Positions 28,323 to 36,576 of a stretch of 64,000 nucleotides of DNA are shown here, piece by piece. The stretch is from the NCBI GenBank assembly GCA_027858855.1, contig JAQIBV010000054.1, positions 62,001 to 126,000 of the forward strand, in the 5' to 3' direction. Under the pieces are notes generated by a model. The model did not search any database. It was not told where the DNA came from and saw only the letters and a list, made by a program, of their open reading frames with translations. This stretch comes from Spirochaetota bacterium (GTDB lineage Bacteria > Spirochaetota > UBA4802 > JAFGJZ01). The first letter of the stretch is position 1; each line of letters opens with the position of its first letter. Position numbers and translations under genes: made by a program.

Positions 28323-30179
28323 TTAAGCTTTAGCCGTTTGTCTTTTATGGTAAACAGAAAGACCGGCGCCTATTGAGGCAAAGAAAATAAGAAGTATGAT
28401 AACCAACAACCGGTTGCCCTCGCTTGTACCTAGCAGGTAGGCACTTAATGCAGAACCTTCGTAGGCACCAAGTTTTTTTAACTGAATCTGTTTTAGTTCC
28501 ATTATGACATCTTCATCGCCGTCATTGATCCACGTTATGTAGATTCGCGTGTTTCCTCCGGCAAGGTTGATATTTGAATTTCCGGCTTTGAACATCCTGT
28601 CGCTAGCGTTAATCGAGACCAGATCATTTTCTCCGGTAGAGGAGCTGACTTCCAGTTCAAACTTTTTGAATTTAGATGTCAGTTCTCCGTGATTTTTAAC
28701 CCAGAGTATAACCTTGTATTTCCCTTTTTCAAGGTTCGGAAAGTCAAACGCTATTGCTCCACCTGGTTGATAGGTAAAGGCTCCGTCCCGGGTCCAGTAA
28801 AAGCCGTCGTCAATAGCAGCATATTGAAATGCAGTGCGTACATCGGCTTTCAGGTGTTGATCTAACAGTTGACGATCGCTTGCAGAGGTTTTGTTTAACA
28901 GAATACCTTTTATCTGAATATTGGTATCGTACATACCCTCTTCATAATAATCATTTGTCCATTCAAGAGTCAAATTGTTTGAACCGGCTTTAAGGTGTAC
29001 AAGAGCGGTACCTTTCTGATAGGTGTCTTCTGATGCTGGTATAAGAATTCCGCCCACACTGTTACCTGACTCATCATATACAGTAAGGTTGAAGAATTGA
29101 TAATCTTCAGGTAATGATCCATAAACGTTTTTTGCAATTACACTTAGTGAGTAGTAACCGTTCTCGCCAACATCAGAGATAGAAACATTGAGTCGTTGAT
29201 TTGCTTGTGCGGCATAAATTCCGCTTTGCTCGTCGCTGTAACCAATCTTGTTTCGTATCTCTGCAATTGCATCTTTTACCCGTTCCAGTTGTTTCAGCTG
29301 AGCCTCTTTCGCTTTAGGGTTTTGTAATCTGTCGATACGGGCTATTATCTCTTCGGCTCGTGCTACCAGGTTATTCAGATCTTCAATCAGTTCGGTATAT
29401 TCAGGGTTGTTTGCAAGTTCCTGTTCGGGTACCTGAAACCAGTTGCTGCCGTCTTCAGTGATTACTTCAATTGTGGAATCACCAAGAAGAATTTCCGCTT
29501 CATCTGTAAGTGAGGCCTGCTCCTCTTCTGTATCAGTAGTTGGGTCATCAATGGTACCATCCGGCTCAGAGTCGGCAAGGAGTTCTTCTGTTGTAACAGG
29601 ATCAGCTGGTTCTTCGGATTCAGCTTCAGGCAAAATGTCAGCTTCGTTATCTTCGATATTATCGGCACTGTTATCTGCAAGAGATGTTTCATCTGAAGAG
29701 TCTGTTTCGGTGGCGATCTCTTCTGCAGATTCCTCTGGTTGAGCTGTTTCTGAATCAGATGGTTCTGTAGCAGCTAAATCTTCATTAGTGGTGTCGTCTG
29801 AAGTATCGTTTTCTGTTTCAGTTGCCAATTCTGTTTCTGCTGCCGGTTCGTCTGCGGGTTCATCAGTTGCGGCGGTCTCATCAGTTTCAGGAAACGCCGT
29901 TTCGATCTCTATGATTGTTTCAGCCTCTTCAAGAACAGTCTCTTCATTTATGATAGCTTCATTTTCAGTGGAATCGTTATCCGTTGTGGCCGGAGTTGAC
30001 GTTTCAACTTCGGAACCTTTTGCCGGCTCCTTAACGGTGTCTTGCTCGGCTGTATTGGATGGTGAAGATTCAGGTTCGCCGACTTTTGCTTTTCCTGAAC
30101 CGCTTCCTTCGCAACCGCTGGCAAAAACTAATAGCAGGCCTGTTATGATGGCTATGAGAATAGGTAGTGATTTTTTCAT
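28323..30179 (-). CDS. Acidic lipoprotein with C-terminal membrane helix
   Basis: 618 residues from the ATG preceded by AGGAGG; an in-frame ATG 39 bases upstream lacks one. Order of parts: lipoprotein signal ending 'FASGC' (Cys23); ~200 residues almost entirely Glu, Asp, Thr, Ala and Ser (about 30-235); a helical coiled-coil segment with 'LVARAEEIIARIDRLQNPKA' (about 255-315); two beta-sandwich domains resembling carbohydrate-binding or galactose-binding folds (about 320-570, both with 'R.Y..W.NDG/YEEG'-like endings); and a C-terminal membrane helix 'LLVIILLIFFASIGAGLSVY' followed by 'HKRQ'. Having both a lipid anchor and a C-terminal helix is unusual. I do not recognise the protein; a surface or periplasmic role is inferred. 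Confidence 0.65.
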   Translation of the reverse strand: MKKSLPILIAIITGLLLVFASGCEGSGSGKAKVGEPESSPSNTAEQDTVKEPAKGSEVETSTPATTDNDSTENEAIINEETVLEEAETIIEIETAFPETDETAATDEPADEPAAETELATETENDTSDDTTNEDLAATEPSDSETAQPEESAEEIATETDSSDETSLADNSADNIEDNEADILPEAESEEPADPVTTEELLADSEPDGTIDDPTTDTEEEQASLTDEAEILLGDSTIEVITEDGSNWFQVPEQELANNPEYTELIEDLNNLVARAEEIIARIDRLQNPKAKEAQLKQLERVKDAIAEIRNKIGYSDEQSGIYAAQANQRLNVSISDVGENGYYSLSVIAKNVYGSLPEDYQFFNLTVYDESGNSVGGILIPASEDTYQKGTALVHLKAGSNNLTLEWTNDYYEEGMYDTNIQIKGILLNKTSASDRQLLDQHLKADVRTAFQYAAIDDGFYWTRDGAFTYQPGGAIAFDFPNLEKGKYKVILWVKNHGELTSKFKKFELEVSSSTGENDLVSINASDRMFKAGNSNINLAGGNTRIYITWINDGDEDVIMELKQIQLKKLGAYEGSALSAYLLGTSEGNRLLVIILLIFFASIGAGLSVYHKRQTAKA

Positions 30180-34474: not shown

Positions 34475-34924
34475 ATGAAAATTGCAATCAGTTCTGATCA
34501 TACCGGAATAGATTTGAAAGCATTAATTATTAAAACATTTTCGAATATTGAATTTGTTGATTGTGGGCCCTCCTCGACTGAATCTGTTGATTACCCTGAT
34601 TATACAGAAAAGGTCGCAAAGGCTGTACAACAGGGTTCCGTTGATGGTGGTATAGCAATATGCGGAACCGGTATCGGTGCATCAATTACTGCTAATAAGT
34701 TTAAAGGAATACGTGCCTCTCTCTGTTTAAATGGCTTTATGGCCGAGATGACACGTAAGCATAATGATTCAAACGTATTAGTATTGGGTGCACGGGTAAC
34801 CGGTGATGAAGTCTCGCTTTATATCGTCGATAAATGGTTGTCAACTGAGTATGAGGGTGGGCGGCATCAACGTCGCATTGACAAGATTTCTGTAATTGAA
34901 AATCGTGAAAACACCGGGGCCTGA
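34475..34924 (+). CDS. rpiB: Ribose-5-phosphate isomerase B
   Basis: Interconverts ribose 5-phosphate and ribulose 5-phosphate in the pentose phosphate pathway. 149 residues with the RpiB/LacAB fold: phosphate-binding 'ISSDHTGIDLK' at the N-terminus, catalytic Cys63 in 'AICGTGIGAS', 'TRKHNDSNVLVLGAR' and 'YEGGRHQRRIDKI'. These are the RpiB positions; the allose variant is not excluded. GAGG precedes the start, and the stop overlaps the next start by one base. Confidence 0.94.
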   Translation: MKIAISSDHTGIDLKALIIKTFSNIEFVDCGPSSTESVDYPDYTEKVAKAVQQGSVDGGIAICGTGIGASITANKFKGIRASLCLNGFMAEMTRKHNDSNVLVLGARVTGDEVSLYIVDKWLSTEYEGGRHQRRIDKISVIENRENTGA

Positions 34925-36576
34925 TGGTACGCAGGATTGTCAGCGTCTCTATTATTGTTCTTCTGTTTAGCTTTTCATTTTTTTGTATTTACTCATCAAA
35001 ACGTGTTACCGGGCGTTATGATTTTTCTCCTCAACGGTTACACTTTCAGCGTGTACGTCCTGTAAAAACCGAGACAGGTTATGAGTATGAGCTTGCTGAA
35101 ACAACTTACGATAAACCGGACTATCTTATAAGTGATTTAACCATCTCGTTTAATAAAAACAATTATCATACAACCGATGATTCGGGAAAATATCGGGCAG
35201 CAGTTTCAAGTTATTCCTGGTTCAAACCTGATGGAGGAGCCGGTGACGGAGCCGGTTACTTTTATAAACGTAATCATCGTTTGGAATTTAATAACAGCTC
35301 TGCTTCATGGTTAGGAAGTACTGATGATCTTGGTTCCTTTACTCTTGAGTTCCGTATTAACCCGGCATCATTGAACGATGGAGCTAAGCTCTTTTCACGT
35401 GTGGGTTATAACTCCGGTACGCGAAACGGAATTCTCATTACACTTCAGGATCGAAGAATTCACTTTGCGTTGTATGATATGTTTAAAGATGATAATAATG
35501 TACGTCATACCTATGAATTTTCGTCTGCTAAACTACTTAAAAAAAAGCAGTGGTATCATGTAGCGCTCTCGTATGACCGGATTTCCGGTAAGATGGAATT
35601 TTTTATTGATGCTGAGAGCCAGGTTATGTTTTATGCTACTGATAATGGTTTGGATTCCGGAACCCTGCACATACCATCATTTCATAAACACGACATGCCG
35701 GGTATTCTGCTTGGTAAAGATTATTTTGGTTATATTGATGAATTCAGGCTTAGTTATCGACGTTATGAAGATCTTAAAAAGATAACAGCTATAGCTGATA
35801 AAAAACACATCGATGTTGGTGTTACCGGACGTATCCCCGTGAACAGTGAAGGGGTTATTACCAGCCCGGTTTATGAGTTTCCTCATACTGGAACAATGAT
35901 TAAGGATTTTTTCTGGAAACAGGCTCTTGAAAAAGAGACCTTTATCTGGTTTGAAGTTCGACTTTCTGATGACAAATTTGATCAGTATCATCAGAATCCA
36001 CGCTGGTACCGCATAGAGAATCACCAACGAAATATATATCTTATGAAAACCGGAGACCTTTTTTTGCGTGGTAAATATGTTCAGTGGCGAGCCCATCTTA
36101 TTCCGTCGCCTGATGGGAAACGCTCACCGCTTCTGCAGTCTATTAGTATGGATTACGAAGTGGATACTCCTCCAATTGCTCCACTTTTCCCTGAATGTAT
36201 TGAACAGGGGGATGGTTATCTTGTTTTACGATGGAGAAAAAATGTTGATTACGATTTTTACGGGTATAAGATCTATTATGGTGTTAAGAGCGGCAACTAT
36301 GAGGGTGTTTTGCAGTATGACGGATCGAAGCCGATTATAAATGATAACGAGGATTTTGTAGAGATACGAATTGATAATCGTCTTATTGAGGAGAATCGTT
36401 TAAAAGACGGGAGTGGAATGTTAAGTTATCCATTGTTGAAGAACAATGTACTTTACTATTTTGCTTTGACAGCTTATGATAATTACCGGGTTGGTACAGA
36501 ATATAATCATGAGTCGGAATTTTCGAAAGAGATAACTGGTCGTCCGTTTGGTGGTAGTGAAATACGGGCAAAATAA
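34924..36576 (+). CDS. Exported LamG-domain and Fn3-domain protein
   Basis: 550 residues. An N-terminal signal or anchor (about 4-24, 'IVSVSIIVLLFSFSFFCIY') is followed by a concanavalin-like LamG domain (about 110-285: 'GSFTLEFRINPASLNDGAK', 'KKKQWYHVALSYDRISGKME', 'GYIDEFRLSYRRYED'), a beta-rich middle segment and an Fn3-like domain near 415-540 ('GDGYLVLRWRKNVDYDFYGY'). LamG domains bind carbohydrate or protein, so this is probably a surface or periplasmic binding protein; no enzyme motif is visible. It is joined to rpiB by a one-base stop/start overlap. The ligand is unknown. Confidence 0.7.
   Translation: MVRRIVSVSIIVLLFSFSFFCIYSSKRVTGRYDFSPQRLHFQRVRPVKTETGYEYELAETTYDKPDYLISDLTISFNKNNYHTTDDSGKYRAAVSSYSWFKPDGGAGDGAGYFYKRNHRLEFNNSSASWLGSTDDLGSFTLEFRINPASLNDGAKLFSRVGYNSGTRNGILITLQDRRIHFALYDMFKDDNNVRHTYEFSSAKLLKKKQWYHVALSYDRISGKMEFFIDAESQVMFYATDNGLDSGTLHIPSFHKHDMPGILLGKDYFGYIDEFRLSYRRYEDLKKITAIADKKHIDVGVTGRIPVNSEGVITSPVYEFPHTGTMIKDFFWKQALEKETFIWFEVRLSDDKFDQYHQNPRWYRIENHQRNIYLMKTGDLFLRGKYVQWRAHLIPSPDGKRSPLLQSISMDYEVDTPPIAPLFPECIEQGDGYLVLRWRKNVDYDFYGYKIYYGVKSGNYEGVLQYDGSKPIINDNEDFVEIRIDNRLIEENRLKDGSGMLSYPLLKNNVLYYFALTAYDNYRVGTEYNHESEFSKEITGRPFGGSEIRAK

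Follow-up and report, generated by a model that had tools for sequence, protein, structure and literature searches.

The window analysed here is a 64,000-nucleotide stretch of a Spirochaetota genome, and its gene of interest, read on the reverse strand from an ATG at 30179 to a stop codon at 28323, encodes a protein whose features are listed in Table 1. Its lipobox reads F-A-S-G-C23 with Glu at +2, and the signal peptide and lipobox Cys that mark a bacterial lipoprotein are kept in the complete orthologues. The region following the Cys (residues 24 to 233) consists of 34% Asp+Glu and 15% Thr and has a net charge of -67. The AlphaFold2 model showed disorder to about residue 233, two coiled-coil helices (261–312), beta-sandwiches at approximately 317–430 and 446–571, a short helix at 577–584 and a long helix at 587–617; its overall confidence is modest (pLDDT 63.5) because the stalk is disordered. 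Hydropathy peaks at residues 591–609 (mean 2.75), directly before H611-K-R-Q614. The preliminary description of the protein, with a lipobox Cys, an acidic stretch of about 200 residues, a coiled coil, two beta sandwiches and a C-terminal membrane helix ending in HKRQ, was borne out by these data.

Table 1. Features of the lipoprotein gene (positions in the window)
Feature	Position	Strand	Basis
Whole gene: dual-anchored CBM60-like lipoprotein, 618 aa	28323..30179	-	ORF and orthologues
Lipoprotein signal peptide, residues 1–22	30114..30179	-	Sequence; kept in orthologues
Lipobox Cys23 codon	30111..30113	-	Sequence
Acidic Glu/Asp/Thr-rich disordered stalk, residues 24–233, starting with conserved G-[EG]-P-x-x-S-P	29481..30110	-	Composition, AlphaFold2, orthologues
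Coiled-coil hairpin, residues 261–312	29244..29399	-	AlphaFold2
CBM60/CBM36-like beta-sandwich 1, residues 317–430, with W-T-N-D...Y-D-x-N	28890..29231	-	Pfam PF16841; Foldseek CBM36 1w0n
CBM60-like beta-sandwich 2, residues 446–571; Y-D-x-N part gone in window genus	28467..28844	-	Alignment, AlphaFold2 model
C-terminal tail module, residues 575–618: GSALSAYLLGTSEGNR + helix + HKRQTAKA	28326..28457	-	Tail profiles

In a first search, relatives of the window protein were found in 15 of 59 genomes, and those with names are Spirochaetota metagenome-assembled genomes (MAGs), Leptospiraceae included. Orthologues with only 23–52% identity keep the same architecture, so the layout is not a product of chance. 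Members of the family keep the lipobox, a hydrophilic stalk of variable sequence and a tail of the form S-x-L-x-A-Y-L-L...G-N-[RK]-helix-K/R, the exceptions being the homologue in G029 and two incomplete copies at contig edges in G023; the motif G-[EG]-P-x-x-S-P after the lipobox is degenerate in a few members. The preliminary description had made its reading depend on the presence of the C-terminal helix in orthologues. The helix is indeed kept in orthologues, but two homologues lack it: the one in G029 (24% identity, with a different N-terminus, in one of the 15 matching genomes) and a single-domain CBM60-like homologue (L033), which has neither helix nor tail.

The CBM60 Pfam model PF16841 matched all 13 family members, with 3.3e-12 as the best value; the window copy taken alone scored 2.2e-5, under the Pfam cut-off, and Foldseek aligned the window sandwich with CBM36 1w0n (TMt 0.71). 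The presumed calcium site, N-D...Y-D-x-N, is retained only in domain 1 of the window protein, whereas most other members have it in both domains. Two such domains, carried on the acidic stalk, might bind glycans. Considered as a key to the protein's function, the CBM60-like domain was set aside as a detail of the ectodomain, given that the match is weak and the tail is independent of CBM60. Elsewhere in the window, at 34924–36576, lies a gene for an exported protein that has a Laminin_G_3 domain and lacks the tail module.

A C-terminal module on unrelated lipoproteins

Searching 393 Spirochaetota genomes with the family profile gave additional matches to the tail alone, at the ends of other ORFs, and a profile of the tail (A2) extended the list. 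The tail comprises the last ~44 residues and consists of [LI]-x-[AG]-[YF]-[LI], a short linker, a helix and K/R. Among 1797 distinct ORFs, 53 matched the tail profile with at least 14 bits at the C-terminus. In the window's Spirochaetota order, at least six families with unrelated ectodomains carry it at their extreme C-terminus (CBM60, LamG/DUF5018, LruC, Big/OmpL47, collagen-like and a tandem family), and the ectodomains of different families show no mutual match except between LruC and the G003 protein and between the collagen-like protein and the G004 neighbour. The helix-plus-K/R tails that the preliminary description suggested seeking on other exported proteins therefore exist. The genome containing the window (G000) encodes a second tailed lipoprotein, a 1430-aa protein of the Big/OmpL47 family. 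All complete tailed proteins but one have a signal peptide and a lipobox Cys, and several others are truncated by contig ends; the exception (L115 1271–2512, G034:C118) is LruC-like and has a signal peptide without a lipobox Cys. In-frame stops were seen in two tailed lipoprotein genes, shortly after the lipobox region in G002 (L155, ~1290) and at the expected lipobox Cys in G209 (L211, ~2466), and may reflect decay or assembly error.

Of the 53 tails, 49 have [LI]-x-[AG]-[YF]-[LI] ahead of the helix; the same holds for 10 of 106 other C-terminal helices, six of these 10 being visibly missed tails, so that the background is about 4 in 100. The tail is a shared module on unrelated lipoproteins. 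Like general tripartite CTERM signals, it joins a motif, a helix and a basic end at the extreme C-terminus of unrelated proteins. No conserved Cys was found across the 53 tails, a residue that is invariant in MYXO-CTERM, and an NCBIfam search for a known CTERM model returned only a sub-threshold LPXTG match to one tailed protein. The tail is probably a signal, of a class that is apparently new.

A PrsW-type protease linked to the tail

The preliminary description had named a sortase or an exosortase as the enzyme to look for, and this expectation failed. Sortase (PF04203) and exosortase (PF09721) are absent from G000 but were detected in controls, and the best score there for rhombosortase (TIGR03902) was 41.9 bits against a cut-off of 84, with only sub-threshold general rhomboids; all three were rejected as partners of the tail. 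Comparison of the flanks of tailed genes revealed a single recurrent neighbour, a protein of ~680 aa that begins with a PrsW protease and ends with a cyclic-nucleotide (cNMP)-binding domain. In the window's order this protein matches PF13367 and carries the cNMP domain, while its middle is PilZ-like by TIGR02266 (3e-6 to 7e-6, under the TIGR02266 cut-off); a model placed a beta domain at 340–416 and a CRP-like fold in the C-terminal part. We refer to it as PrsW-PilZ(-cNMP); the cNMP domain is usually part of the fusion. The first Glu of motif 1, FxxxEN, the His and HxxxD are conserved in the copies examined. In the window's order, however, motif 1 is EKxGA rather than the EExxK of Bacillus subtilis PrsW, and activity is therefore not assured. 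The [DN]xSxxG part of the PilZ-like domain is degenerate in the order, and LIC_20173 of Leptospira interrogans is classed among the proteins without the arginines (PMC12943098); c-di-GMP was accordingly rejected as the ligand of this domain, and a cyclic nucleotide is the likelier ligand in the order.

Tail and protease occur in the same genomes. With profile A2, which was built before the protease was recognised and gives the only count free of adjacency circularity, the protease was present in 25 of 25 tail-positive genomes among the 59. Full-length protease copies were counted in 28 of the 59 genomes, one of them (G003) being a contig-edge fragment, and in each of the three protease genomes without an A2 tail a divergent tailed lipoprotein adjoins the protease. 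The final count in the order (46 genomes) was 28 with both, none discordant and 18 with neither (p=4e-13, a value that ignores relatedness); profile A6 contains a few tails found by adjacency, which makes this last step partly circular. Across the 393 Spirochaetota genomes, 39 have both, one the tail only, 14 the protease only and 339 neither. The match holds within one genus (g5 of family f4; three genomes with both, two with neither) as well as between genera of several families, and two further families, f11 and f34, show the same pairing with weaker tails. Nearly all genomes surveyed are MAGs, and the genome-wide lists come from profile searches.

The two genes are also often neighbours: of the order's 37 protease genes, 26 directly adjoin a tailed lipoprotein gene, in convergent and same-strand layouts. 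The single protease copy of G000 (G000:C20) adjoins the gene for the 1430-aa tailed protein. The window gene lies elsewhere, and its product is presumed to be a second client of this protease. When partner families are mapped on a tree of 60 proteases, 15 label changes are needed, compared with 33 for shuffled labels. The LamG-partner proteases of two families in the order cluster together, and in G038, which has both kinds, the CBM60-partner copy falls outside that cluster. Dedicated enzyme–substrate pairs would look like this, although adjacency would also agree with a partnership in docking or sensing. Single helices that end in K/R are common, and the helix is missing in some homologues (G029 and L033), so the tail might be thought an ordinary membrane anchor that is associated with the protease through shared gene islands only. 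This is most improbable, given that the motif precedes 49 of 53 tail helices and about 4 in 100 other C-terminal helices, that the linkage persists across families, including the further families of the phylum, and that the protease clades are partner-specific.

No tailed neighbour was found for 23 of the 60 PrsW-PilZ copies in the tree. Among the Leptospirales-like copies of family f34 (L199–L203; 584–599 aa), which lack a tailed neighbour, the genes have a FliG-like and a short Hpt-like gene as neighbours; from this context a second role of the PrsW-PilZ family is possible. The link to flagella envisaged in the preliminary description was dropped, since such FliG-like neighbours occur only at these copies and the window family gave no support for it.

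Proposed processing of tailed lipoproteins

We infer the cleavage of the tailed lipoproteins, together with its site and regulation, their destination and their glycan binding. Our main reading, to which we assign a probability of roughly two in three, is that the final ~44 residues act as a signal for C-terminal processing (sorting) and are cut by PrsW-PilZ(-cNMP), which would free the lipoprotein from the inner membrane. The window protein would cross the inner membrane through Sec, receive its lipid at Cys23 and stay fixed in that membrane by lipid and helix together, with [LI]-x-[AG]-[YF]-[LI] at the outer face and the K/R in the cytoplasm, so that the two anchors would be a transient state. 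PrsW-PilZ(-cNMP), encoded elsewhere in the same genome, would recognise the tail and cut at or near its outer end. In B. subtilis, PrsW cleaves its substrate on the membrane's outer side, in agreement with the proposed site near the outer face. Anchored by lipid alone, the protein could then be passed further, the likeliest destination being the outer membrane or the surface, where its paired CBM60-like domains might reach glycans. A cyclic nucleotide or another second messenger may control the cut, as the protease carries cytoplasmic sensor domains. More tentatively, adhesin-like lipoproteins, with LruC as one client, might be parked in the doubly anchored state and freed on demand by a cyclic-nucleotide-gated intramembrane protease.

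The preliminary description offered two explanations of the C-terminus, a span of the periplasm and a sorting signal, of which the second is better supported by a mobile module on unrelated lipoproteins that is coupled to one intramembrane protease family. A permanent tether, with the lipid in the outer membrane, the uncut helix in the inner membrane, the stalk across the periplasm and PrsW handling something else, would suit the topology (K/R inside), the long and always present stalk and the localisation by others of the tailed LruC to the inner leaflet of the outer membrane (PMC5406399). It found no positive support, and it leaves unexplained both the common motif before the helix on unrelated ectodomains and the close linkage to one intramembrane protease, in the same genomes and often in neighbouring genes; we regard it as improbable.

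It is also unlikely, if a little less so, that the uncut helix docks on PrsW-PilZ-cNMP and reports the state of the envelope or of glycans, and that the protease has a different substrate, for example an anti-sigma factor. The cytoplasmic sensor domains and the adjacency, which fits any partnership, would agree with this, and PrsW proteins fused to PilZ or cyclic-nucleotide domains have been described as likely signaling peptidases, with no substrate given (Zhang et al., 2012; PMC3482391). However, the tail resembles known tripartite signals that are cleaved, and no anti-sigma gene recurs beside the protease copies, bar a STAS-like neighbour in two genomes. With only ~5–15 cytoplasmic residues after the helix, a protein signal sent inward by the cut tail fragment is unlikely as well. 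In the two genomes mentioned, G013 (L142 6007–6357) and G026 (L143 2911–3246), a small STAS (anti-anti-sigma)-like gene precedes an orphan PrsW-cNMP gene, the sole hint of a sigma-factor link.

Among known systems, the proposed one is closest in kind to MYXO-CTERM and the myxosortase MrtX (PMC11980579), in which a tripartite C-terminal signal common to many Sec-exported surface proteins is paired with a glutamic-type intramembrane protease whose CPBP family is distantly related to PrsW. It differs in that the lipid is already at the N-terminus, the protease belongs to PrsW and is fused to PilZ-like and cNMP domains, and dedicated protease paralogues flank a few substrates rather than dozens. 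GlyGly-CTERM and rhombosortase (PMC3237569) likewise combine a short motif, a helix and a basic end with an intramembrane protease, but motif and protease are others; the tripartite tail of PEP-CTERM works alike, its partner exosortase being lacking in G000. The partner protease shares the PrsW fold and most motifs with B. subtilis PrsW, which cuts an anti-sigma factor, and with its PrsW-PilZ relative LIC_20173 (PMC12943098). Second-messenger-gated proteolytic release of an envelope adhesin is known from LapA/LapD/LapG, where a periplasmic cysteine protease acts and the adhesin is retained in the outer membrane; the proteins are unrelated and the analogy is functional only. If the proposal is true, a PrsW protease would, to our knowledge, be paired for the first time with a C-terminal sorting signal, and the signal would be tied to second-messenger domains as well. 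The linkage of tail and protease suggests an undescribed system that releases or sorts spirochaete surface proteins, and bears on how spirochaetes select the lipoproteins that leave the inner membrane; it offers a concrete signal, an enzyme and a cultured test case.

The LruC pair of Leptospira

Plasmid records, among them L. interrogans chromosome II, were searched at the protein level and yielded a PrsW-PilZ gene 44 bp downstream of a gene for an LruC-domain lipoprotein, whose C-terminus is ...DEDSELMGFLLRSMKKNAILIAILLIGAGAAVAYILKRRTLSQA; against profile A6 this tail alone reached only E=0.0012 (scaled to a search of 3500 proteins). The pair is taken to be LIC20172–LIC_20173 from the LruC and PrsW-PilZ annotations and the numbering rather than from a one-to-one match of locus tags. 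LIC20172 is LruC, an outer-membrane lipoprotein (PMC5406399), and LIC_20173 is a predicted active protease whose substrate is not known and for which RsiW has been proposed (PMC12943098). LruC resembles the window protein in its lipobox, long low-complexity stalk, ectodomain and kind of tail, and differs in having an LruC-domain rather than a CBM60-like ectodomain. In the literature searched, no paper names both LruC and PrsW or links LIC_20173 to its neighbour, and none describes the LruC tail as a signal; relative to it, the tail, its link to PrsW-PilZ and the membership of LruC are new. Our reading predicts LruC, which is being studied as an antigen in leptospirosis and equine uveitis, as a substrate of the adjacent orphan protease LIC_20173, in place of an anti-sigma factor or in addition to one.
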